Below are positions 4,047 through 32,812 of a stretch of DNA of 36,455 nucleotides, piece by piece. This stretch comes from Prochloron sp. SulCav_FS08_3_32_3330 (lineage in GTDB: Bacteria > Cyanobacteriota > Cyanobacteriia > Cyanobacteriales > DYNF01). Where the stretch lies: assembly GCA_020721205.1 (NCBI GenBank), contig DYNF01000024.1:10810-47264 (forward strand). The letters are read 5' to 3'. Each line of letters begins with the position of its first letter. The first letter of the stretch is position 1. Under the pieces are notes generated by a model. That model was not told the origin of the DNA. It saw nothing but the letters and a program-made list of their open reading frames with translations, and searched no databases. The translations under genes and the position numbers were made by a program.

Positions 4047-4658
4047 TTATTTAATTATTTCTAATAAACCTTGATAGAATATTTGAAAACTGGGAGATTG
4101 ATTAACTAAAGGATTCATATAAGGGGAAATTTCTCTAGCTAATTTGAACTTTTCTAAGCCACCTTGATAATAACCTGCCTGTTGTAACACTCTTTCTAAT
4201 GCTTCCCAAGTACCACCTTTAATTGTATCAGGATTACGATATTGTTTTTGCTGATTTAAGTTAGCAGAAACTTTAGGATATGCTTGACAAATTGCCGTAA
4301 TATCTCCAAAAAACCATGCTTCTAATTCTTCAATTATAATGCGATTTAAGACTTGAAAATTTTGGTCATTTTCTCGCGCTGTTTTAGTGATAAAACCTGC
4401 TGATTTTGCCATCGTTTCTAATTGTTGTTTCAGTTGGTGACAATCTTGCCGATCTTCATCTATTAATACCACAATTTTATAATCTTGAGGAAGCCATGCT
4501 TTATATCCTTTTAAACGTGAAGGTAAATTTTTTAAAAGGTTTTCTTTCCCCCGAAAATTATGAATTTTAAAAGTAATTTCTGGGGGTAACATTTTTGGTA
4601 AAAGATGTTCTAATGTTTCCCCTAATGAAGCTTCTTCTGCTAAGATTTCTAAATGCAA
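4047..4658 (-). CDS. DUF4276 family protein (TOPRIM-like), partner of the upstream ATPase
   Basis: A 203-residue protein matching the DUF4276 pattern: an acidic start (EILAEEASL, Glu8/Glu9), a strand ending in an acidic cluster (VVLIDEDRQD, Asp67-Glu68-Asp69) and an IIEELEAWFFGD segment (about 108-119). The early Glu plus DxD arrangement is that of TOPRIM-type metal sites, so a metal-dependent nuclease or phosphotransfer activity is plausible but inferred. The gene lies 90 bases downstream of an ABC-type ATPase on the same strand. ATPase plus TOPRIM pairs are known from OLD-like and PARIS-type (AriA/AriB) defence systems; DUF4276 is not the same family as AriB (DUF4435), so the analogy is of organisation only. 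Confidence 0.8.
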   Translation of the reverse strand: MHLEILAEEASLGETLEHLLPKMLPPEITFKIHNFRGKENLLKNLPSRLKGYKAWLPQDYKIVVLIDEDRQDCHQLKQQLETMAKSAGFITKTARENDQNFQVLNRIIIEELEAWFFGDITAICQAYPKVSANLNQQKQYRNPDTIKGGTWEALERVLQQAGYYQGGLEKFKLAREISPYMNPLVNQSPSFQIFYQGLLEIIK

Positions 4659-4748
4659 TGTTTTTACTCCTAATAATACTTAATTATTGATTCTAATTTG
4701 AGTAATTTAATTTACTAATAAATAACAATTTATGCTCTTTATCTCATT

Positions 4749-5915
4749 TTAAAAATAGTTTTCCATCCATAAAGAACCTAATAATGCACCATGTTCCATA
4801 AACTCTTTTATGCCTTGAATATGTGCCGTATTTGTAGCTTGAGTAAAGCCTTTTTTATCCCTTTCTAATATCCATAATTCTTGAGGTTTTAAAGCATCAA
4901 CAAAGAAGGGAGAATGAGTCGTCACCATTAATTGACTATTACTAGAAGCGGCTCGACATTCTTCTCCTAATTCTGGTAATAAACGAGGATGTAAATAATT
5001 TTCTGGTTCTTCTATACCGATTAATTGAGGCGGATTTGGGTCATATAATACTGTTAAATAAGCTAACATTTTTAATGTACCATCAGATGCAAATTTTGCT
5101 AAAATTGGTTGACTAAAAGGGGCATCTTTAATCTGTAATAAAAGTCTTCCATCTTGCATAATTTCCGTAGAGACTTTTTCTAAGTGCGGAATACGTCTGG
5201 AAAGCGTTGTTAAAATCTGTTCTAAACGCTCAGGATGTTCCTCTTTTAAATATTGAATAATATTGGGTAAATTATCTCCCGTTGGAGATAATCTTTCTTG
5301 TACTCCAGCCGGGGGAATTGTGCGGGTATGATCTGCACTTAAATAGGATAAATACCAGCCTGTAATAAAGCGTCTTAAGGCACTAACTCTAGGATGTTTT
5401 GCAAATTGTCCTAAAGTATTTACTGCTAGAAATTCAGGGGATTCTAATTGTTCAAAAATACGCTCATCATTCTCATCAGGATTTTCTCCACTTATTACCA
5501 TTCCTTGCCCTTTTTTGAAGTCTAAAAAACGTAAAATTTTACCTGTTTTTTCTTCTTGTAAATTTAACCATTCTTCAGCAATAAAAGGATGATTATTTTC
5601 TTCATCAATGGTTAAATGATAAGTAATTAAAGGTGACTTTTCCGTTTCACGATATTTAATGTAAATAACGATACCACCATCACTTCCTCTAGTGCGTAAT
5701 TCTTTAAATCTGCCCCTTCTCTCCCAAGCTTTTCTAAGACTTTCGGTAAAACATTCAGCTAAAAAAGCAAAGACATCAAAAATCGTAGATTTTCCGCTAC
5801 CATTTGCTCCTAAAAAGACAGTTAAGGGGGTAATATTTTTTAATTCAAGGTTATGTAATGCTCGATAATTTTGGACTTTTAAATATTCAATTCTGGGAAT
5901 AGATTGTTTAGTCAT
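4749..5915 (-). CDS. AAA_21/AAA_15-type (ABC-like) ATPase
   Basis: A 388-residue ATPase of the RecF/OLD/SMC-like class. The N-terminus [12 protein letters not shown] opens the ABC half; Walker A is GANGSGKST (36-44); an LSPTGDNLP segment in the middle corresponds to the ABC signature region; Walker B is LIGIEEPE (about 298-305) with the catalytic Glu pair, followed by a D-loop-like YLHPRLLPE; the switch His lies in VTTHSPF (about 334). All elements for ATP binding and hydrolysis are present. It is the first gene of a two-gene unit with DUF4276. Such ATPases typically act as sensors or regulators of a nuclease partner in anti-phage systems; that role is inference here. Confidence 0.88.
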
Positions 5916-8357: not shown

Positions 8358-11105
8358 TTAACGATTAATTGTTACAAAAAGCTCTTTTCCTGTACCTTTC
8401 TCTTTAGCATAAACATTTAAAATATCATTAGCATCAATATCAAATGTCACCTCAATTTCAAGATTCTCTGTTGATTTTGGATCAATTACATCTATTCTAA
8501 ACCTACTTAAACTAATATTATCTTGAGCAAATTCTTCTTCACCTTGTAAAATATTAATTTCTATATAATTTTGTCCATTAATAGCAGATAAAACTGACAT
8601 TTCTGCATTCTTATCTTGATAAAATGGGGTTATAAAACTTTCTAATTTTTTAGTGGGAATTGTTGTATTTCTAGGAATAATTTTAGTCATTACTCCGCCT
8701 AAAGTTTCTACTCCTAAAGAAAAATTAGTGACATCTAATAATAAAACATCTTTAATATTTCCTTGTAAAACTCCTGCTTGAATTGTTAAGCCGTTTGCTA
8801 TTCTATCATATTGATTAAAAACTTTAATAGATTGTTTGGAAAACATAGATTGTAAAGTGTTTTGAATCATCTGAATACGAGTACAACCACCTAATAAAAC
8901 TATAGTATCAATGTCTTTTTTATCAATTATCGCATCTTTTATTGCATTTTCTAATAAAATTTTAATAATAGATATTAAATCAGAGCAAAGATTTTCAAAT
9001 TGATTTCTAGTCAAGGTTAACTCTAAATTAATATTATTAAATATAAAAGGGATATTTATTTCAGTTTGGGTTCTAGTTGATAATTCAATTTTAGCTTTTT
9101 CGGAGGCTTCTAATAATCTTTGTTTAGCCGCAGGAAAATTTTTAAGATCAATTCCTGTATTATTTTTAAATTCTTGAATCATCCAATTTACAATTTTTTG
9201 ATCAAAGTCATTTCCTCCTAAATTTGGATCACCAGTATGGGATAATACTTCAAAAACACCATCACCTATTTCTTGTAAAGAAATATCACAATTACCCCCA
9301 CCTAAATTAAAGAATAAAACTGTTTCATTTTCTGGTTTATTATATCCATAAGCTAAAGATCCTGCTGTTGGTTGATTGATAATTCTCAATACTTCTAAAT
9401 CTGCTTTTTGAACTAGATCTCTAATAATTTTACGTTGTAAATAATCCCAATAAACAGGTACAGTAATTACAATTTTAGTAACTTTTTCTCCTAAATATGC
9501 ACTAGCATCATCAGCTAATTTACATAAGAAATAAATCAAAATATCTTCAGGATAAAGTTTCTCGTTAATAGCTGGACAATCAAAAACAATATCATTATCT
9601 TGATCCGCTAAAACTCTATAAGTAACTTGCTTAATTTTTTCTGTAACTTTATCATATTTACAACCAATAAACCGCATAAATGAACTAAATGTATTTTCTG
9701 GATTAGCTAAGGCTTGTTTTTGTGCATTTTTGCCAATTAAACATTCACCTTTCTTATTAAAAGCTACGATAGTTGGGGTAATATTCTCACCTTCAGAATT
9801 AGGAATTATGGTAAATTTATCATCTTCCCACAATGACATAACGGTATTAGTTGTACCTAGATCAATTGCAACAATTTTTCCCGAAGTATAAGCAAATTGT
9901 TTAACTCTTTTTGCTTCTGGTTTTGTAATTTTAATAGGTGTTTTTAAGTTTTTAATACGTTCTAATAATTCTTGATTTTCGTTTATATTTCCCTCTTGTA
10001 AATAAAGGAATGAAGCTTTATGAAAATCATTAATAGCATTAGTTTTCTGATCTAATCTTACAGAAGAAATTCCTCTATATTTATAATATTTAGCTTCATT
10101 AGGATTTAATTTAATTGCTTCTGTAAAATTATTGATTGCTTCCTGATAATTAGCTTGTTGAGCATTTTTCATTCCCTGTTGATAAAATAGTTCTACATTG
10201 TCTTGATTGGGAACATTTTTATTATTAGTAATATCTAAATCCTGCAGTATTTCCTCTACAGATTGATAACGATTTTTTAAAGCCTTTTGTAGCATTTTAT
10301 CAATAATTTTGACTAAATTATCACTGATGGAAGTTGTTAAATTTTCTCGCCAAATCCAGCAATCTTCAGTAATATCATATAATTCAAAAGGACTTTTATT
10401 AGTTAATAAATGAATACAAGTAACACCTAAACTATAAATATCACTAGAAAATAAAGCTTTTCCTACGGTTTGTTCGGGTGCAATATAACGTGGATCTCCG
10501 ATTCTTGTACCTGTTTTATTTAAAGTGGTAAAAGTGGCTAACTTTGAAGCTCCAAAATCAACTAAAATTAATTCTTGATCAGCATTACGTCTAATAATAT
10601 TTTCAGGTTTTATATCTCTATGAATAACTTGATTTTGATGAACAAATTGTAAAACAGTTAATAAGCTTTTTAGTAAATGTATAATTTTAGTTTCATCAAA
10701 AGCTCCTTGATTTTCTAATTCCTCTGCTAAATTTTGTCCCTCGATAAATTCTTGAATCAGATATAATTGCTCATTTTGTTCAAAGTAAGCAAAAAGTTGA
10801 GGAATTTGCTTACTATTTTTACCTAAATTATCAAGTCTTACTGCTTCTTGTCGAAATAAATCTACTGCTTTTTCTACAGTTTTAGTTCCCTGATCTTGAG
10901 GAAAAAATTGTTTAATAACACAGTAAGGTTTTGAGGGAATATCTTGATCAACGGCTAAAAAAGTTTTACCAAAACCTCCTTGACCAATCTTTCTAATTGG
11001 AAGATAATGTTCTCTAAGTAATAATTTATTGCCACAATTTTGACAAAATTGATTATGATCTGGATTTTCTGCTTTTTGGCAATGGGGGTTTAAACAGTAA
11101 GACAT
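8358..11105 (-). CDS. Zinc-ribbon/Ser-Thr kinase/TPR/Hsp70 fusion with a degenerate Hsp70 active site
   Basis: A 915-residue multidomain protein. Residues 4-24 form a zinc ribbon (Cys4, 9, 21, 24). A complete Hanks kinase spans about 37-290: GQGGFG loop, Lys65, HRDIKPEN (162-169), DFG (183-185), APE (209-211), so it should phosphorylate Ser/Thr. TPR-like helices cover about 305-385. From 410 an Hsp70 runs to the end: ATPase domain with the phosphate-1 loop AIDLGTTN intact, interdomain linker DVLLLD (786-791) and the beta-sandwich substrate domain. Compared with E. coli DnaK, the hydrolysis residues Lys70, Glu171, Asp194 and Thr199 read Met477, Gln578, Asn600 and Asn605, and the helical lid is absent. 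It could therefore bind ATP and perhaps peptide but probably not turn over, acting as a sensor or scaffold for the kinase. Transcribed alone; the start at 11105 places the zinc ribbon at the N-terminus. Confidence 0.93.
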   Translation of the reverse strand: MSYCLNPHCQKAENPDHNQFCQNCGNKLLLREHYLPIRKIGQGGFGKTFLAVDQDIPSKPYCVIKQFFPQDQGTKTVEKAVDLFRQEAVRLDNLGKNSKQIPQLFAYFEQNEQLYLIQEFIEGQNLAEELENQGAFDETKIIHLLKSLLTVLQFVHQNQVIHRDIKPENIIRRNADQELILVDFGASKLATFTTLNKTGTRIGDPRYIAPEQTVGKALFSSDIYSLGVTCIHLLTNKSPFELYDITEDCWIWRENLTTSISDNLVKIIDKMLQKALKNRYQSVEEILQDLDITNNKNVPNQDNVELFYQQGMKNAQQANYQEAINNFTEAIKLNPNEAKYYKYRGISSVRLDQKTNAINDFHKASFLYLQEGNINENQELLERIKNLKTPIKITKPEAKRVKQFAYTSGKIVAIDLGTTNTVMSLWEDDKFTIIPNSEGENITPTIVAFNKKGECLIGKNAQKQALANPENTFSSFMRFIGCKYDKVTEKIKQVTYRVLADQDNDIVFDCPAINEKLYPEDILIYFLCKLADDASAYLGEKVTKIVITVPVYWDYLQRKIIRDLVQKADLEVLRIINQPTAGSLAYGYNKPENETVLFFNLGGGNCDISLQEIGDGVFEVLSHTGDPNLGGNDFDQKIVNWMIQEFKNNTGIDLKNFPAAKQRLLEASEKAKIELSTRTQTEINIPFIFNNINLELTLTRNQFENLCSDLISIIKILLENAIKDAIIDKKDIDTIVLLGGCTRIQMIQNTLQSMFSKQSIKVFNQYDRIANGLTIQAGVLQGNIKDVLLLDVTNFSLGVETLGGVMTKIIPRNTTIPTKKLESFITPFYQDKNAEMSVLSAINGQNYIEINILQGEEEFAQDNISLSRFRIDVIDPKSTENLEIEVTFDIDANDILNVYAKEKGTGKELFVTINR

Positions 11106-11425: not shown

Positions 11426-13435
11426 ATGAAAATCATGATGATCCAGCCTAATTATCATTCAGGGGGTGCAGAAATTGCTGGAAATTGGCCCCCTAGTTGG
11501 GTTGCTTATGTGGGGGGTGCTTTAAAACAGGCGGGTTTTAATGATATCCGTTTTATAGATGCGATGACGAATTATATCTCCGATGACGTTTTAGGGGATA
11601 TGATTGCCAAACATCAGCCCGATGTGGTTTTAGCAACGGCGATCACACCGATGATCTATCAATCTCAAAAAACTTTAGAAATTGTCAGGGAAGTTTGTCC
11701 TAATGCTAAAACCATTATGGGGGGCGTTCATCCTACTTATATGTATCAAGAGGTACTGACTGAAGCCCCTTGGGTAGATTATATTATTCGAGGAGAAGGA
11801 GAAGAAATTACCGTTAATTTATTACGCGCGATCGCTGATGGTACGGATCTTCGAGATCGTCGTCAAATTTTAGGTTTAGCTTTTCTCGAAAATGGTGAAG
11901 TAGTAGCAACAGAGGCACATCCACCGATTAAAAATCTTGACACTTTAAAACCTGATTGGAGTTTATATGACTGGAAACAATACATTTATACGCCGTTAAA
12001 TGTGCGGGTAGCTGTACCTAATTTTGCCAGAGGTTGTCCTTTCCGGTGTCGTTTTTGTTCTCAATGGAAATTCTGGCGTAAATATCGCTGTCGTTCACCT
12101 AAATTATTTGTAGACGAAATTGAGCAATTAGTCAAAGAACATAAAATCGGATTTTTCATTTTAGCTGATGAAGAACCTACAATTACTAAGCCTCGTTTTT
12201 TAGCATTATGTAATGAATTAATTGAGAGAAATTTAGGAGTACCTTGGGGTATAAATACCCGGGTTACTGATATTTTAAGAGATGAAAATGAATTACCATT
12301 ATATCGCAAAGCTGGGTTAGTTCATGTGTCTTTAGGTACGGAAGCCGCCGCTCAATTAAACTTAAATGTATTTCGCAAAGAAACCACGATTGAAGATAAT
12401 AAAAAAGCGGTACGCTTATTAAGAGAAAATGGAATTGTGGCGGAAGTTCAATACATTATGGGTTTAGAAAATGAGACTTTAGAAACCATTGATGAAACCT
12501 ATCGGATGGCACGAGATTGGGAAGCGGATATGGTTAACTGGAATATGTTTACTCCTTGGCCCTTTTCTGAATTATTTGAAGATGTGGGAGATAAAGTGGA
12601 AGTAAGAGATTATTCTCACTATAATTTTGTGACTCCGATTATGAAACCTTTGAATATTACAAGGGAAGAATTATTAAAAGGAGTATTAAATAATTATGCT
12701 CGTTTCTATCTGAAAAAAAGTTGGGAATATTGGTTTGAAAAAGACCCCTTTAAACGTCGTTATTTATTAGGTTGTTTGTGGGCATTTGTTAAAACTACTC
12801 TGAATAAACGCTTTTATAATTTAAGTCGAGTTAAACAAAAAGGGATTGATTTTGGTTTTGATTCTAAGCGTATTTTAACCTCAGAACAAATTGCTGATTT
12901 AAAAGAAAATAAAGCCGCCGATGTTAATTTTGTCGGGACAATTTCTGCTTGTGGTGCGCCTAGTAATGTAACAGAGTCTTTTCCTGTGGGTAATGCGATT
13001 CTGATGACGGAAGACCATTGTGATATTCAAGTATTTTTAATCGAAGATGATGAAGATACTCGTATTTCTTTACGTCAATCTTTGCGAGATCAAGAAGGCA
13101 TTGATATTTATAGTGAAGCCACTAATGCTGAAACTGGATTAGTTTTATTAACATCTATTGCGGGGGCTGATGTGGCTTTAATTGATATGAGTTTGCCCGA
13201 TCGAGATACGCTCGAATTAATCCAAGAATTTCAAAAAATTCAAGGAGAATCGGATAATCCGAATCTAAAAATTTGTCTATTAGTTGAGCCTAATACGGAG
13301 GAACAAATATTAGCAAATCTAACTAAATTAAATCTTCCTTATTGTTTCAAAAATGCACCGATCGAACAATTAACGGAAGCAATAAAAACCGCTCATGTAG
13401 GATGTACGAATCAAGATAAATTATTACTTATTTAG
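11426..13435 (+). CDS. BchE-like B12-binding radical SAM protein fused to a C-terminal receiver domain
   Basis: 669 residues. The N-terminal part (about 1-140) is the B12-binding-type Rossmann domain with the hallmark start IQPNYHSGGAEIAGNWPPSW shared with anaerobic Mg-protoporphyrin IX monomethyl ester cyclase (BchE). The radical SAM core follows with the 4Fe-4S motif CPFRCRFC (Cys204, 208, 211). BchE converts Mg-protoporphyrin monomethyl ester to protochlorophyllide without O2; cyanobacterial relatives are not all proven to do so. From about 532 a receiver-like domain is fused: EDDED acidic pocket (540-544), phosphoacceptor Asp587 in ALIDMSLPD, Lys642 in CFKNAP; the usual Ser/Thr after beta-4 is not evident (LLVEPN). 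This is about 130 residues longer than the usual enzyme. Good AGGAGA ribosome-binding site. It ends at a convergent terminator. Confidence 0.9.
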   Translation: MKIMMIQPNYHSGGAEIAGNWPPSWVAYVGGALKQAGFNDIRFIDAMTNYISDDVLGDMIAKHQPDVVLATAITPMIYQSQKTLEIVREVCPNAKTIMGGVHPTYMYQEVLTEAPWVDYIIRGEGEEITVNLLRAIADGTDLRDRRQILGLAFLENGEVVATEAHPPIKNLDTLKPDWSLYDWKQYIYTPLNVRVAVPNFARGCPFRCRFCSQWKFWRKYRCRSPKLFVDEIEQLVKEHKIGFFILADEEPTITKPRFLALCNELIERNLGVPWGINTRVTDILRDENELPLYRKAGLVHVSLGTEAAAQLNLNVFRKETTIEDNKKAVRLLRENGIVAEVQYIMGLENETLETIDETYRMARDWEADMVNWNMFTPWPFSELFEDVGDKVEVRDYSHYNFVTPIMKPLNITREELLKGVLNNYARFYLKKSWEYWFEKDPFKRRYLLGCLWAFVKTTLNKRFYNLSRVKQKGIDFGFDSKRILTSEQIADLKENKAADVNFVGTISACGAPSNVTESFPVGNAILMTEDHCDIQVFLIEDDEDTRISLRQSLRDQEGIDIYSEATNAETGLVLLTSIAGADVALIDMSLPDRDTLELIQEFQKIQGESDNPNLKICLLVEPNTEEQILANLTKLNLPYCFKNAPIEQLTEAIKTAHVGCTNQDKLLLI

Positions 13436-15191: not shown

Positions 15192-16256
15192 TTAAAAGAA
15201 ATCAAATTCATCCTCCATATCATCACCAAACATTTCTGCTATCATTTCCTCTAATCTTTCTCGTCTCATGGTATGAAAAATATCAGGACCTTCTAAAAAG
15301 CGATTAACTGTGATTTTTTTATCCTTAAAATTTTTCACAAAATTGCGAATTTCTTTAACTAGATTAACTTGTTTTTCTAATTGTTTTAACATTTCGGAAA
15401 TTAGATCAATTTTTTCTCGTTTAGCACGACGATAATCTGCAACTAATTCTCCTTCAGAAGTATTTTTAACTAATCTTAATTCCTGTTTCAAATCTTCATA
15501 TTGATTTCTCAATAAAATATTACGTTTTTCTAAACGGTTACATTGACGAGTTAAATCATCTTCATTATTATCGTCAATTTCTTCCCCAATTTCATATTTT
15601 TGTTCAATTTCTAAAAGTCTAGCTAAATCTCCCTCTTGATAAGCCTTATTAATTTCCTGCATAAGTTTAGTATGAAAGCTTTGACTAGATTCATCTGTGA
15701 CTTTATCCGGGTGAAAAATAGAAGCTAATCTTAAAAAAGTTTGACGAATTTCTCTTGCTTCTGGCTCATCTCTTTTCTTATTATTTTCATCTATTTGTTT
15801 CCCTTGATTTTCTTCAAATTCTGATCTAAAATTCCCAAAATTTTCAGATTCTTCTGACTCGTTAATATCTCTAAATAAATCATCTAAATCATCTTCCTCC
15901 TCTTGGGAAGTTTGAGGACTAATAACACCTATTTCCTGAAAAGAGTGATACATATCTCTAATTTTTTTGATCACTTTTTTACTAAAATTACGATTAGGAT
16001 GATTAAAAATTTCGTTAAAAAGTTGATGAATTTCTTGATCTAAACTCATCATTCTTTTCATTGGCTCGGCAGTTTTATGGAATAATTCCAGCGCCACACT
16101 ACGCATTTGTTCAACGAAATTTCTTAATTCAGTCTGCTTTTTTTTAATTTGTTTTAATAGCCATTGATGTTGTTTTTCTAATTCTTCTATTCTAAAATGT
16201 AAATCAGACAGGGCTAAGGTAGCAGTTTGATCGGTTTTTTTATTTGTTTTAGACAT
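15192..16256 (-). CDS. J-domain-like protein with coiled coils
   Basis: 354 residues if started at the ATG at 16256. A longer frame (to 16340) translates a GATGAAC heptad repeat, so its extra 28 residues are not credible. The N-terminal part (about 17-110) is charged and helical, predicted coiled coil; an acidic linker (EEEDDLDDLF and following) leads to a J-domain-like segment, about 170-215, with FLRLASIFHPDKV carrying the HPD motif (182-184) that stimulates Hsp70 ATPases. More coiled coil follows (about 235-320), and the C-terminus is acidic (MFGDDMEDEFDFF). It lacks the Gly/Phe and zinc-finger regions of DnaJ, so it is a class III-type J protein. It follows pyrD by 80 bases and may be co-transcribed. 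Partner and client are unknown. Confidence 0.82.
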   Translation of the reverse strand: MSKTNKKTDQTATLALSDLHFRIEELEKQHQWLLKQIKKKQTELRNFVEQMRSVALELFHKTAEPMKRMMSLDQEIHQLFNEIFNHPNRNFSKKVIKKIRDMYHSFQEIGVISPQTSQEEEDDLDDLFRDINESEESENFGNFRSEFEENQGKQIDENNKKRDEPEAREIRQTFLRLASIFHPDKVTDESSQSFHTKLMQEINKAYQEGDLARLLEIEQKYEIGEEIDDNNEDDLTRQCNRLEKRNILLRNQYEDLKQELRLVKNTSEGELVADYRRAKREKIDLISEMLKQLEKQVNLVKEIRNFVKNFKDKKITVNRFLEGPDIFHTMRRERLEEMIAEMFGDDMEDEFDFF

Positions 16257-16270
16257 AATAAACGATAAGG

Positions 16271-16298
16271 GATGAACGATGAACGATGAACGATGAAC
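16271..16298. repeat. Four perfect GATGAAC heptads
   Basis: Four head-to-tail copies of GATGAAC between the pyrD stop and the J-like gene start; another cyanobacterial heptad repeat. It accounts for the spurious N-terminal extension of the J-like frame. Confidence 0.85.
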
Positions 16299-16336
16299 GG
16301 TTATTATTATTAATAAACAATAATAACTGTTAATTG

Positions 16337-17491
16337 TCAATAGTCAATTTTTGCTGAAATTCCTACGGCTTCAGAAATATGATTTAAGCCATTTTCTGTT
16401 AACTTTTGTAATAAGCCTTCTTGAATATTTTTAACAACCCAAGGTCCTTCATAAATCATACTGGTATAAAGTTGTAATAAAGTAGCCCCGGCTGTAATTT
16501 TTTCCCAAGCATCTTGGGCATTAAATATTCCCCCAACTCCAATAATTGGAATTTTACCGTTTGTTTCTTGATAAATAAAACGGATAATTTTTGTTGAAAT
16601 ATCCTTCAAAGGTAAACCACTAATACCTCCCGCTTCTTCAGTGATCATTTTACCAGTTTCGGGTAATATTTTCGTTTTTAAACCTTCTCTTTTAATCGTG
16701 GTATTAGTAGCAACAATTCCTGATAATTGATAGGTTTTTGTTAAGTCTAATATAGTCTTAATTTCTGAAAATTCTAAGTCAGGAGCAATTTTGATTAAAA
16801 GAGGTTTTTCTCCTTGATTTTTCTGTTGTAAACTATCTAAAATTAACTCTAATTCTTCCCCACCTTGTAAACTTCTTAAGCCCGGAGTATTAGGAGAACT
16901 AACATTAATGACAAAATAATCTGCTACATTTTTTAATAGTTGAAAACTCCCTAAATAGTCTTGATGAGCCTCATTTAAAGGAGTAATTTTTGATTTACAT
17001 AAATTAATTCCGATGGGAATATGACGAGGCTCTCTTTTCCATGTTTGTGCCAAAGTTTGAGCGATCGCTGATGCCCCCAAATTATTTGCCCCCATGCGGT
17101 TTAAAGCCCCTAAATCCAAGGGTAAACGGAATAAACGGGGGCGGGGATTGCCCGTTTGAGGATGAAGGGTGACTGCCCCTAACTCAGCAAAACTAAAGCC
17201 AAAACTTGACCACATTCCCGCCGCTACGCCATTTTTATCAAATCCGGGGGCTAATCCTAAAGGGGTATTAAAATTAAATCCCCATTGTTGTTGAGTTAAT
17301 TTTTCAGTTAATTTTTGATCAGAAAAACAAAAGGTTTTTTCTAACTGTTGACGCAGGAAAATAGCCCAAGGAGTTTGTCTTGATTGTTCAAGATTAGCTA
17401 AAATATCAATTAGTTGTAAATGTGCCTGTTCTGGATTACTTTTTACCGTCGCTAAATATAAAGGGTAAAAAGGTTTAGCAAAATTAAACAT
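16337..17491 (-). CDS. pyrD: Dihydroorotate dehydrogenase (quinone), class 2
   Basis: A 384-residue flavoenzyme that oxidises dihydroorotate to orotate in pyrimidine synthesis and passes electrons to membrane quinones. The class 2 N-terminal amphipathic extension is present (about 1-70), followed by the FMN barrel with [13 protein letters not shown] (78-90), [10 protein letters not shown] (128-137) and the catalytic segment [15 protein letters not shown] (196-210), where the base is Ser as in class 2 enzymes rather than Cys. NTTIKREGL and [19 protein letters not shown] form the phosphate-binding end. The gene is first in a likely unit with the J-like gene. Confidence 0.97.
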
Positions 17492-27732: not shown

Positions 27733-27892
27733 AAATTTTTAAGGTTGATCTTATTAGGAATAATTATTAATTATTAACAAAGGCAACTAAAACAAATATT
27801 TTAAGTCTAAAATATTAATTATATTTAATAAATTTAGTTTAATAATTATCATAATTTCCTTGTCTATTTTTAGTGCCAAAATCCTCAAAAAA

Positions 27893-29140
27893 ATGAATAT
27901 CTTTAAATTTAATAAAAAAAATGTAGATGATATAGAAATAAACTTAAAAGAAACGGCTTTTAATGCTTTTATTAGTGAAATTTTAACTAATAGTGGACAT
28001 TTTTTGCTATTAAATTCTATTGCGGAAATAGTTTGGATGGGTTGGCATAATTATATTATAAATCCCAGTCATTATTTAATGTTAATCGGAATGTTAATCC
28101 AAGGATGGTATTTATCTCGTCCTTCTAGTCATCGTTTTTGGGGTAATTTAATTGGTTTTTCTATTTATAGTTTAACGGATTTACCTTTAGATGGTTTTCT
28201 TGAATTTTTTGAAGAATTTAATCATTGGATTTTATTTATATTTTCTTTCTTAATTGCTATTTTACAAGGTTTAAGAACTCATTGGCTACCTTCAATAAAA
28301 AATATAGTAATTCCCCTTGAAAGTATTACTAGAATGATGATGTTGTTAACCCTTTATTTAAGTTTTCAATTAAAGGTAAATATCGCAGATCAAGAATTAT
28401 CTCATTTAGATTTATTATTCCCAAATTCTCATCAAAATTGGTTTATTGTCGCCAGTTTATTATTAGTAGGATTATTTTTAGGTTTACAAACATTACAGGT
28501 AACAAAACAACGGGAAAAGTTACAAAAAACGGCTACAATTTTAAAAGATTTAGCACAGTGGGGCATGGGAACTCATGCTGTAAAAATGGCAATTACTAAT
28601 CCTCAACAATTATCTTTTGAACGCAGAAAAAGAGCTATTTTATTTATGGATATTAGGGGTTTTACGCACTGGTGTGAAGAAAATTCCCCCGATCAAGTGG
28701 CACATCTTCTTAATGCTTATTATCAATCTGTTGAACCTGCTTTAGCAACTTTTCACCCGTTAAAAGTAAGCCTCACTGCTGATGAAGTTATGGCAATTTA
28801 TCCTACTTCTGAAATGGCTGTAAAAGCGGCTCAAAATATGCAAGAAAAAGCCAGTTTATTGTTAGAAAAATATAATTTAGGTGCTGGTTGTGCGGTACAT
28901 TATGGTAATGTAGTAGAGGGTTTTTTTGGTAGTGATGAAGTGCGCACTTATACGGTTTTAGGGGATGTAGTTAATACAGCTAAACGCTTAGAAAGTTCCA
29001 CTCCTGCGGGAGAAATTACGATTTCTGATTCTGTTTATCAAGCAATAGTAAATAAATTAGATCAATTAATATTTATTCCTCGAAAAAGTATTAAAGCAAA
29101 AGGTAAAAGTGAACCTTTAAAAGCTTGGAAAATTAATTAA
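27893..29140 (+). CDS. Membrane-bound class III adenylate/guanylate cyclase
   Basis: About 415 residues from the ATG at 27893; an upstream in-frame TTG at 27860 is possible, neither has a good ribosome-binding site. The N-terminal half carries four to six hydrophobic segments, so the protein is a polytopic membrane sensor. The cyclase domain (about 240-415) has the first metal Asp in LFMDIRGFT (Asp253), the second in LTADEVMAIYP (Asp297) and the transition-state Asn361 and Arg365 in GDVVNTAKRLES. The purine-selecting Lys usually three residues ahead of the second metal Asp-Gly pair reads Ser, and the Gly before the Asp reads Ala, so product and activity are uncertain. It faces the hybrid kinase gene tail to tail. 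Confidence 0.88.
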   Translation: MNIFKFNKKNVDDIEINLKETAFNAFISEILTNSGHFLLLNSIAEIVWMGWHNYIINPSHYLMLIGMLIQGWYLSRPSSHRFWGNLIGFSIYSLTDLPLDGFLEFFEEFNHWILFIFSFLIAILQGLRTHWLPSIKNIVIPLESITRMMMLLTLYLSFQLKVNIADQELSHLDLLFPNSHQNWFIVASLLLVGLFLGLQTLQVTKQREKLQKTATILKDLAQWGMGTHAVKMAITNPQQLSFERRKRAILFMDIRGFTHWCEENSPDQVAHLLNAYYQSVEPALATFHPLKVSLTADEVMAIYPTSEMAVKAAQNMQEKASLLLEKYNLGAGCAVHYGNVVEGFFGSDEVRTYTVLGDVVNTAKRLESSTPAGEITISDSVYQAIVNKLDQLIFIPRKSIKAKGKSEPLKAWKIN

Positions 29141-29200: not shown

Positions 29201-32200
29201 TTAAGAATTATATTTATTTAAAACTTTCATAAGTTCAGCGATCGCCAGGGGTTTTCTAATATAATCATTCATGCCTATATCTAAACAGATTTGACGATCT
29301 TTCTCTAACACATTAGCAGTTAAAGCAATAATATAAGGTTGCTTTTCTTCAGATTGACGTATTATTTTTGTAGCAGTTAAACCATCCATTTCAGGCATTT
29401 GTAAATCCATTAATATTACATCATAATCTTGTTTTTTAATCATCTCTAATACTTCTAAACCATTGTTAGCAAGATCCGCACTATAACCAATTTTTTTCAG
29501 GGTTAAAAGAGCAACTTTTTGATTAACTAGATTATCTTCAGCAAGAAGAATCTTTAATAAAGATGGAGAGGATTTTACTTTTAATTGATTTTGATCTGGA
29601 GTTATTTCCGGTTTAATTTCTGTTGTTAAAACGGCTGTTACTGGTAAGTTAAAATAAAAAGTTGTACCTTGATTTTTTTTAGTAATATGTTCATTTTCTT
29701 TTAACCAATTTTGAGGAGGATTACCGCCTATATTACCAAAACTTTCGATCCAAATTTTACCTCCCATTAAAGTTACTAAATTTTTACTAATTGCTAATCC
29801 TAAACCTGTACCGCAATATTTACGACTAATAGAAGCATCGGCTTGAGTAAACGGTTGAAATAGTTGATTTAATTGCTCTTTATTAATACCAATTCCTGTA
29901 TCTTTAATAATAAATATTAATTCATATTGATCCCCTGCAAAATAAGCATCTTGCTTGTTTTCTAAAATAGTCTGCTTGTTACTAATAACATTAATAGAAA
30001 CGCCACCTTTTTGTGTAAATTTAATCGCATTTCCCACTAAATTTAAAATAATTTGACGTAATCGAGAACTATCTCCTAAAATTGTATGAGGAGCATGATT
30101 ATCAATGCTATAATTAAGATTAATTCCTTTATCTTCTACTTGTTTAGTCAATAGATTACACACAGATTTAAGCACATCTTTTAAAACATAAGGATTGCTT
30201 TCTAATTCTAACTTTCCTGATTCAATTTTAGAAAAATCAAGAATATCATTAATAATCGTTAAAAGTGCATTTCCACTATCTCGAATTGTCATAACTAAGT
30301 CTTTTTGTTCCTCTGAAAGATTACTCATCGAGAGCAATTGAGCCATCCCAATTACCCCATTCATAGGAGTACGAATCTCATGACTCATATTAGCTAAAAA
30401 TTCACTTTTGGCTTTAGTAGCATCTTCTAATTTTGAATTAGAAATAGAAAGATTTATATTCGTTTCTTTTAGTTTTTGTTCAACAATTTTTCTTTCCATT
30501 AACTCTTTTTGTATTTGAGAAAATAAATATCCTTGTTGAATAGCGATCGCCACTTGAGTAGCTAATTGATTGAGTAATTCCACCTCAAAAAGTTGCCATT
30601 CCCTCGTAGAATTACACTGATGAGCAATCAGTAGCCCCCAAGTATAAGAATCCTGCAAAATAGGCACAACTAACTTCGCTTTAACTCGTAATCTTTCTAA
30701 TAATTTAATATGACAATCACTAAAACCTACCTTGTAAATATCAGAAATATTATTAATCTTACCATTATGATAATTTCCTCCTTTAGTTTCCACAAAATAA
30801 GCATCAGTAATTTCCATACCCAGAATTGACAGAGATTCCTCTGATACTGACTCAGTAATAACCACCCCACTCCAGTCAGGATTAAGACGATAAATAATGA
30901 CCCGATCTGTTTCCAGAAAATTGCGTACTTCATCCACCGTTGTTTGTAAAATCTGATCTAAATCAAGGGATTGACGAATATTTTGAGTAATAAGATTGAG
31001 CAGTTTTTCTCGTTGTACCTGTTGACGGATCATAATTTCAGCCTGTTTACGCTCTGAAATATCAAGCACAATTCCGAGTGCAAATTGTAATTCCCCTCGA
31101 AAATTATAAATAGGAGAAGCAGTCAAATTAACCCACTGAATTTGTCCATCTTTGCGGAGATAACGCTTCTCCATTGAATAGGAAATGCCCTTTTGCCAAA
31201 ATTGAATATTATATTTACGATTCAATTCCCGATCATCAGGATGGGTTATATCTACATAATTAATCTGTTTAAGTTCTGCCTCAGAATATCCTAATAACTC
31301 ACAAAACCGTTCATTTACCTTAAGGAATTTTCCCGATGAATCCACCAGTCCAGCCCCTACCGTTGCTTGTTCAAAAATGCCTCTAAATAGAGCCTCATTT
31401 TCCTGTAAATCAATTTCTAACTGTCTTCTTTCTGTAATATCGGTAAAGGAAGTAACTACCGCATAAGGCTTTGAATACTCAGGATTAAACAGAGGCTGAG
31501 AATTAATCGAAATCCAAGTTAATTGATTATCCGGTTTATGAACCACCATAATCACATTAGTTTGAGGTTTTCCTGTGCTTAATGTGACCATCGCTGGATG
31601 ATCCTCCCCCGCAAAAGGTGAGCCATCTTCATGAAGCGATCGCCAACGAGGATCAAAGGAAGTGAGTCCTTTCATTTGATCCTCTGTTAATCCGAGTATT
31701 TTTTCCGCATTTTTATTACAAGCAATAATCAGACCATCTCCTTGTTGAAGCACAATACCCTCTGTCATTGCCTCAATTACTGAGTGATAACGCTCCTCAC
31801 TGTCTCTTAAAACTTTCTCAATTTGTTTCCGCTCAGTAATATCCGTATGAGTGCCAATCATGCGTAAAGGCTTACCATCCTCACTTTTACTGAAAACTTG
31901 TCCCCGATCTAAAATCCATTTATAACTACCATCTTTACATTTTATTCGATGTTCCGAAATATAATAATCAGTTTCTCCTCGAAGATGTTTATTAAGATTA
32001 AGATAAACTTTCTCTTTATCCTCACAATGTATTCTAGTTTTCCACTCACTTAAATTATTATTAATTTCATCATCTCTAAAACCTAACATTTCTTTCCAGC
32101 GAGGAGAAAAAAAGACCTCATTAGTTTCAATATTCCAGTCCCAAAGACCATCAGTATTACCTTCTAAAGCATATTGCCATCGTCTTTCACTAGCTTGAAG

Positions 32201-32812
32201 TTCTGTTTTTAATTTCTGTTTATGTTCTTTATAAATAGATTCTTTTTTGATTTTATATTTTTGTAAATTTTGCAAAACAATTCCTAATTGAGATGCAATA
32301 TTTTGTAATAATTTAACTTCTAAAGAATGCCATTGACGAGGCGCATCACATTGATGTGCAATTAATAAACCCCAAAGTTTTACTTCTGTTTGTTTTCCGA
32401 TTAAAATAGGTACAACTACATTAGCTTTTATTTGAAAAGCTTGTAATAATTCTACATGACAAGATTCAAGTCCACTGCTATAAATATTTTCAATGATGCT
32501 AAATCTTCCCCGACAATAAGACTCGATTAAATTCTCACTAAAACAAGGATCATAGACCAGTTTACCCAGTATAGATACCCATTTTTTTTCCACAGACTCA
32601 GCTATGATTACTCCATCTTTTTGAGGAAGTAATTGATAAATGATCGTGCGATCGCAATTTAAAATATTGCGAGTCTTTTCCACCGTTATATTTAAAATAT
32701 CCAACTCATCCGTTAATTGATGAATTTCCATAGTTAAAGAAGTAATTTTGTCGAAAAAATTACTAACTATTTCTAAGTTGGAGTCAGGAGAGGAAATATG
32801 TAGGAAAGACAT
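29201..32812 (-). CDS. Hybrid histidine kinase with two cyanobacteriochrome-type GAF domains, three PAS and a receiver
   Basis: 1203 residues. Order: GAF1 (about 35-185), PAS1 (about 210-330), PAS2 (340-465), PAS3 (470-590), GAF2 (about 605-760), HisKA with His811 in MSHEIRTPMNG, HATPase with N-box LNLVGNAIKF, DTGIGI and GTGLGLAI, and a receiver (about 1085-1200) with Asp1136 and Lys1187. GAF1 has the bilin-binding Cys118-His119 (ESCHVELL) and, 28 residues before it, DPCF (Cys90), the DXCF second Cys of blue/green two-Cys cyanobacteriochromes such as PixJ. GAF2 keeps Cys700-His701 but reads DAYF instead of DXCF. LWGLLIAHQC is present in GAF1 and TWGLLIAHQC in GAF2. It lacks membrane segments, so it is likely a soluble light-sensing kinase passing phosphate to its own receiver. 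No partner regulator is adjacent; a cyclase gene faces it. Confidence 0.92.
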   Translation of the reverse strand: MSFLHISSPDSNLEIVSNFFDKITSLTMEIHQLTDELDILNITVEKTRNILNCDRTIIYQLLPQKDGVIIAESVEKKWVSILGKLVYDPCFSENLIESYCRGRFSIIENIYSSGLESCHVELLQAFQIKANVVVPILIGKQTEVKLWGLLIAHQCDAPRQWHSLEVKLLQNIASQLGIVLQNLQKYKIKKESIYKEHKQKLKTELQASERRWQYALEGNTDGLWDWNIETNEVFFSPRWKEMLGFRDDEINNNLSEWKTRIHCEDKEKVYLNLNKHLRGETDYYISEHRIKCKDGSYKWILDRGQVFSKSEDGKPLRMIGTHTDITERKQIEKVLRDSEERYHSVIEAMTEGIVLQQGDGLIIACNKNAEKILGLTEDQMKGLTSFDPRWRSLHEDGSPFAGEDHPAMVTLSTGKPQTNVIMVVHKPDNQLTWISINSQPLFNPEYSKPYAVVTSFTDITERRQLEIDLQENEALFRGIFEQATVGAGLVDSSGKFLKVNERFCELLGYSEAELKQINYVDITHPDDRELNRKYNIQFWQKGISYSMEKRYLRKDGQIQWVNLTASPIYNFRGELQFALGIVLDISERKQAEIMIRQQVQREKLLNLITQNIRQSLDLDQILQTTVDEVRNFLETDRVIIYRLNPDWSGVVITESVSEESLSILGMEITDAYFVETKGGNYHNGKINNISDIYKVGFSDCHIKLLERLRVKAKLVVPILQDSYTWGLLIAHQCNSTREWQLFEVELLNQLATQVAIAIQQGYLFSQIQKELMERKIVEQKLKETNINLSISNSKLEDATKAKSEFLANMSHEIRTPMNGVIGMAQLLSMSNLSEEQKDLVMTIRDSGNALLTIINDILDFSKIESGKLELESNPYVLKDVLKSVCNLLTKQVEDKGINLNYSIDNHAPHTILGDSSRLRQIILNLVGNAIKFTQKGGVSINVISNKQTILENKQDAYFAGDQYELIFIIKDTGIGINKEQLNQLFQPFTQADASISRKYCGTGLGLAISKNLVTLMGGKIWIESFGNIGGNPPQNWLKENEHITKKNQGTTFYFNLPVTAVLTTEIKPEITPDQNQLKVKSSPSLLKILLAEDNLVNQKVALLTLKKIGYSADLANNGLEVLEMIKKQDYDVILMDLQMPEMDGLTATKIIRQSEEKQPYIIALTANVLEKDRQICLDIGMNDYIRKPLAIAELMKVLNKYNS

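Follow-up and report, generated by a model that had tools for sequence, protein, structure and literature searches.

The window analysed here, a stretch of 36,455 nucleotides from Prochloron sp. SulCav_FS08_3_32_3330, carries an ATG-started open reading frame of 915 amino acids (8358..11105, minus strand) in which an intact Ser/Thr kinase is fused to a lidless Hsp70 that has lost its hydrolysis residues and kept its linker and peptide pocket. On sequence grounds, we tentatively read the product, at a probability somewhat short of even, as a nucleotide-uncoupled, client-binding adapter attached to a redox-capable 4-Cys-prefix kinase. The coordinates, strand and length agree with those of a preliminary description of this DNA, which had proposed a kinase controlled by an inactive Hsp70. 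An assembly or frame artefact can be ruled out, as a single ATG-to-stop frame with continuous domains lies within a 47-kb contig.

All features of the gene are given on the minus strand. The protein begins with a zinc-ribbon-like 4-Cys prefix (C4, C9, C21 and C24; residues 3-28, 11022..11099), which matches NCBIfam NF045510 (4Cys_prefix_kin) with 38.3 bits against a cut-off of 24 and bears out the zinc ribbon noticed earlier ahead of the kinase. The Hanks-type Ser/Thr kinase domain follows at residues 37-288 (10242..10997; Pfam PF00069 Pkinase, E = 8.6e-41), and it is intact, as had been described: GQGGFG at 41, K65, HRDIKPEN at 162, DFG at 183 and APE at 209 are all present. With a Cys prefix above the curated cut-off and complete kinase motifs, the protein belongs to the 4-Cys-prefix cyanobacterial Hanks kinases, and with an N-terminal kinase and a C-terminal HSP70 in one reading frame it has the layout of a kinase-Hsp70 fusion. 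The TPR placed between the two parts by the preliminary description stands as a TPR-like helical connector (residues 301-385, 9951..10205), with helices over 301-385 in the full-length AlphaFold model and a unit at 305-336, but the Pfam TPR_2 match to that unit falls slightly below the curated cut-off. The Hsp70 part comprises the nucleotide-binding domain (NBD; residues 409-785, 8751..9881), the interdomain linker DVLLLD (residues 786-791, 8733..8750) and SBD-beta (residues 792-915, 8361..8732), which forms the C-terminal end of the protein. The Pfam HSP70 match, too strong for chance to come into question (E = 2.4e-154), spans residues 411-914 and profile positions 1-497 of 599; since it stops there, the helical lid (SBD-alpha) is missing, so that the earlier picture of an almost full Hsp70 without its lid holds. 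The kinase part is also matched strongly by PADLOC PD-T4-6, but these are broad kinase models which match a Streptomyces protein (described below) as well, and we do not claim a role in anti-phage defence.

The Hsp70 part was aligned with 56 canonical DnaKs (DnaK1, DnaK2, DnaK3 and Firmicutes DnaK). In DnaK, K70, E171, D194 and T199 have roles in hydrolysis and Mg2+ handling, and none of the four columns varies in the reference set (56/56). In the fusion they are replaced by Met477 (9675..9677), Gln578 (9372..9374), Asn600 (9306..9308) and Asn605 (9291..9293), respectively, which verifies the substitutions K70M, E171Q, D194N and T199N read previously. The motifs are unambiguous in the 56 sequences and in PDB alignments, and misalignment is thereby ruled out. 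In the further Hsp70-like proteins that we read from this genome, K, E, D and T are all present. The phosphate-1 loop (D8, T11, T12 and N13), D201 and the glycines of the phosphate-2 loop are retained in the fusion, and so is the adenosine (adenine/ribose) pocket with E267, K270 and S274; R151, R167, N170 and T173 are unchanged. The linker is conserved over L390-D393, so that both the phosphate-1 loop and DVLLLD survive as first reported, and in the peptide pocket of SBD-beta F426, I438 and I472 are kept, while I401V and V436I are conservative.

Several further changes distinguish the fusion from the DnaKs. F146-N147-D148, on the allosteric surface of subdomain IA, reads W553-D554-Y555 (9441..9449), and these residues together with the next helix are heavily altered. 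The SBD-beta loop that bears DnaK A429 carries a 14-residue insertion, FYQDKNAEMSVLSA (residues 828-841, 8583..8624), which is absent from all DnaK sequences shown in the alignment, and P396N, R467T and G468E were also found. F146W, D148Y, R467T and the insertion had all been missed in the preliminary description. In DnaK the lid is latched by R467, and replacement of this arginine thus goes together with the absence of the lid. Measured against a functional DnaK, then, the module lacks the four catalytic residues and the lid, and it has the phosphate-1 loop, adenosine pocket and D201 as well as the linker and SBD-beta pocket. That it still functions as a chaperone by means of a changed catalytic chemistry, to which the persistence of D8, T11 and D201 could be credited, is very improbable, as all four catalytic residues and the lid are gone and the subdomain IA surface is altered.

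The preliminary description had assumed a pseudo-Hsp70 locked in an ATP-like state, and this we do not uphold. In DnaK, only the side chains of T11 and K70 touch the gamma-phosphate, and replacement of either by residues incapable of polar contacts incapacitates allostery; in contrast, T199A keeps allostery, and in E171Q the 100-fold ATP-stimulated release of peptide persists, although E171 and D194 help transmit force (PMC12406271). As K70 is the gamma-phosphate sensor and apolar replacements disable allostery, the combination of K70M and D194N predicts uncoupling more than ATP-locking. The AlphaFold model obtained for the Hsp70 part is of moderate confidence (pLDDT 75.7), with the 14-residue insertion disordered, and does not settle which state the domain adopts. 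Among solved structures, the best matches to the Hsp70 part are DnaK and mortalin. Foldseek searches with this moderate-confidence model gave the best E-values for peptide-fused and open DnaK structures (TM about 0.70, rmsd 8 to 10), whereas the lowest rmsd (about 6) was obtained with Hsc70(1-554) E213A/D214A structures.

Some caution comes from the eukaryotic Ssz1, which binds but does not hydrolyse ATP, has no lid, is held in the ATP form and acts through NBD contacts with another Hsp70 (PMC8476630); by analogy, a non-hydrolysing lidless Hsp70 can occupy the ATP form. Ssz1/HSPA14, of the ribosome-associated complex, resembles the Hsp70 part of the fusion in being lidless, having lost hydrolysis and being tethered to a partner, but no kinase is attached to it and, as it is eukaryotic, the analogy is functional only. 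It could be proposed that the fusion works in the same manner, its NBD, with stably bound ATP or nucleotide-free, holding chaperones (DnaK1/3 or J-proteins) or another fixed partner by the kinase rather than clients. The mode of action of Ssz1 and the adenosine pocket retained in the fusion would favour such a scaffold. However, subdomain IA of the fusion is heavily altered at residues 146-148 and in the helix next to them, and the DVLLLD linker and SBD-beta with the peptide pocket are intact, while in Ssz1 SBD-beta is rudimentary and a conserved linker is missing (PMC10191838). By its linker and SBD-beta the fusion is therefore not of the Ssz1 type, and we regard a scaffold of this kind as distinctly unlikely.

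Judged from identities and trees, the Hsp70 part descends from cyanobacterial DnaK2 and has evolved fast. It shares 54-56% identity with DnaK2 and about 45-49% with DnaK3 and DnaK1, and DnaK2 was its best match in most genomes compared. In trees it falls inside the DnaK2 region, with a branch length of 2.0 to 5.4 where the median is 0.07 to 0.17. Its place in the Hsp70 superfamily by descent from the DnaK2 lineage therefore carries a long-branch caveat. DnaK2 is the canonical essential DnaK of Synechocystis (PMC7281324); it has the SBD pocket and linker in common with the fusion, but it is a stand-alone protein in which the lid and every catalytic residue are present. Although nearly every genome compared has a DnaK2, we did not find one in the assembly of the fusion-bearing genome, where a draft gap is possible and which shares this lack with a few other genomes. 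The Hsp70s found in this genome are DnaK1 (contig C141, adjoining grpE), DnaK3 (contig C27), the fusion and distant homologues. The same genome encodes, on contig C101 (L081:1462-4620, plus strand), a 1053-aa protein with an N-terminal NYN (PIN-like RNase) domain, whose score is slightly below the Pfam cut-off, and an Hsp70-like part with K, E, D and T retained.

The kinases nearest to that of the fusion share 61-67% identity with it over about 290 residues (residues 1-292). The C-terminal modules seen in related 4-Cys kinases are WG repeats, WD40 propellers, FGE-sulfatase or a short tail, and none is an Hsp70; SpkB-type and other 4-Cys-prefix kinases thus have the same Cys prefix and kinase and modular C-termini, but lack the Hsp70 module. 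Since these relatives end in other modules, the Hsp70 was probably captured as one more exchangeable C-terminal module.

A long branch raises the question whether the Hsp70 part is simply decaying. Under such an explanation, a duplicated DnaK2 recently landed behind the kinase and drifts as a dispensable passenger, the kinase alone being of importance; besides the branch length, 65 of the 191 DnaK-invariant columns are altered in the fusion, the fusion was found in one genome, and a sister gene in another cyanobacterium (see below) is broken by a repeat. However, the 507 Hsp70 codons contain no stop and no frameshift at about 45% divergence. When these codons were mutated at random to the observed divergence in a neutral simulation (200 runs), the mean number of stop codons was 17.8 and the minimum 6, in comparison to the observed 0. 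Moreover, among NBD columns invariant in DnaK2 the retention is not random: the fusion keeps 70% of the universal columns and 46% of the DnaK2-specific ones (Fisher p = 9e-5). The lack of stops and the preferential retention of universal columns indicate that the NBD fold, and not catalysis, is under selection. The intact frame and the retained columns thus argue against simple decay, and we consider the drifting passenger even less probable than the scaffold.

The same comparisons set limits on what the substitutions may mean. Losses at the catalytic site are not significantly enriched over those at other invariant NBD sites (4/7 vs 43/138, P = 0.14), and the four catalytic losses are no more than general loosening of the NBD predicts. 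Nor is there support for a stronger relaxation of the NBD than of the SBD: conservation in the fusion is 66% for the SBD and 51% for the NBD, and this difference (-0.15) lies within the range of ordinary DnaK1/other comparisons (-0.17 to +0.04). As the gap is within the DnaK1 range, it adds nothing to the case for retained client binding.

Searches of 196 order genomes together with 30 relatives and 390 genomes of the class (about 520 cyanobacterial genomes) gave no orthologous fusion, with few candidates scored per genome and no further genome of the fusion's own GTDB family in the sets. A GTDB-wide scan with six 8-residue patterns, which need close similarity, did not reveal one either. Among the 390 class genomes, the codon pattern for NLGGGNCD is unique to the fusion. 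The closest kin is an Hsp70 gene in one other cyanobacterium of another family, G006 (L079:1394-3463, minus strand). Its product, like the Hsp70 part of the fusion, is lidless and DnaK2-derived, has K70 and E171 replaced (K70V and E171H) and shares D148Y, but unlike the fusion it keeps D194 and T199, and its N-terminal region is different and gives no Pfam or NCBIfam match above cut-off. The two are sisters in the tree with support of 99/97, but both are long-branched and attraction is possible. They have 13 residues in common that were seen in 0/56 DnaKs, and the codon pattern of D148Y occurs in these two only, among 391 genomes of the order. The G006 gene is interrupted by a short repeat and contains an in-frame stop; the repeat has about 40 copies in that genome which are 99-100% identical, so the break is recent. 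No lid remnant was found after the repeat in this gene.

Kinase-Hsp70 architecture as such is already known. A Ser/Thr kinase of Pirellula sp. (gi|32474490) with a C-terminal HSP70-homologous domain was described by Krupa and Srinivasan in 2005 (PMC1262709); by that published description, with which alone it was compared here, it shares the layout of the fusion in a different phylum. Our survey consisted of cyanobacterial genomes and the GTDB pattern scan. The one other fusion in which the four substitutions were checked, a plasmid-encoded protein of Streptomyces anulatus (Actinobacteria; WP_228183974.1, L074), has an N-terminal Hanks kinase and an Hsp70 that ends after SBD-beta. The absence of the lid is thus repeated there, but the catalytic residues are all kept (VKLKLG, INEPAA and FDLGGGTLD), and the protein is without the 4-Cys prefix or a TPR match. 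As this fusion is lidless yet catalytically intact in sequence, catalytic loss is no rule of kinase-Hsp70 fusions.

With these relatives in view, the adapter reading can be set out as follows. A 4-Cys-prefix Hanks kinase would have acquired a DnaK2-derived Hsp70 as an exchangeable C-terminal module which, its hydrolysis residues lost, presumably no longer hydrolyses ATP. Without hydrolysis and without a lid the chaperone cycle could not run, and as the peptide pocket, linker and adenosine pocket are retained, the module would most likely act as a constitutive, low-affinity, fast-exchange binder of clients. In this way it may bring proteins with exposed hydrophobic segments, or partners from the DnaK network, beside the kinase, which would phosphorylate them or become active as they cluster. 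A redox input may also enter through the Cys prefix, which we propose because SpkB has a Cys-rich N-terminus that serves as a thioredoxin-dependent redox target (PMC10651672). We favour the adapter since the hydrolysis residues are lost, the adenosine pocket, linker and SBD-beta pocket are kept and R467 has gone with the lid; since the module is under structural selection and related 4-Cys kinases carry other, exchangeable C-terminal modules; and since K70 is the gamma-phosphate sensor and Ssz1 offers a precedent for a non-hydrolysing lidless Hsp70 whose function is independent of ATP binding (PMC10191838). On the other side, the 14-residue insertion could block the groove.

A sensor of protein damage is the closest competitor of the adapter, and the two are indistinguishable by sequence alone. 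In a sensor, an unfolded peptide bound to the pseudo-Hsp70 would reshape the fusion and so toggle the kinase on or off, which would suit the retained SBD-beta pocket and linker and the intact kinase. However, with K70, the coupling residue, gone and with F146 and D148 altered, the known route from the peptide site to the NBD is weakened, and in the full-length AlphaFold model (pTM 0.49) Hsp70 and kinase are not placed relative to each other with confidence. We therefore hold the sensor to be unlikely, though less so than the scaffold or the passenger, and prefer the adapter to all three.

Other genes of the window were noted as well. Divergent to the kinase-Hsp70 gene lies a gene (11426-13435, plus strand) for a B12-binding radical SAM (BchE-like) protein that carries a response-regulator receiver domain at its C-terminus. 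A protein with an adenylate/guanylate cyclase domain (27860-29140, plus strand) adjoins a large PAS-GAF hybrid histidine kinase with a C-terminal receiver (29201-32812, minus strand). At 4047-5915 (minus strand), an AAA_21 (AbiEii/OLD-like) ATPase adjoins a DUF4276 protein, and the two genes may form a defence-like pair; a 382-aa ORF without a Pfam match (15192-16340, minus strand) overlaps the end of a dihydroorotate dehydrogenase gene.

Within the searched scope, the joining of a 4-Cys kinase to a hydrolysis-dead, lidless DnaK2 derivative appears to be new, and so does the two-genome lineage of degenerate lidless DnaK2 formed by the fusion and the G006 protein. The broader proposal, that a pseudo-chaperone regulates or targets a bacterial kinase, with a hydrolysis-dead lidless Hsp70 from a small DnaK2-derived cyanobacterial lineage with varied N-terminal regions serving as a pure reader of unfolded peptides, is one we put forward as somewhat doubtful. 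The fusion also bears on whether bacteria possess pseudo-enzymes among their Hsp70s that can be compared with Ssz1, the atypical Hsp70 of eukaryotes. If clients are still bound, the fusion would be a natural case of separation of function, an Hsp70 peptide reader that is released from the ATPase cycle and permanently joined to a kinase; protein damage would then be linked directly to phosphorylation in cyanobacteria, and the fusion would show a route from a chaperone module to a sensor or adapter.
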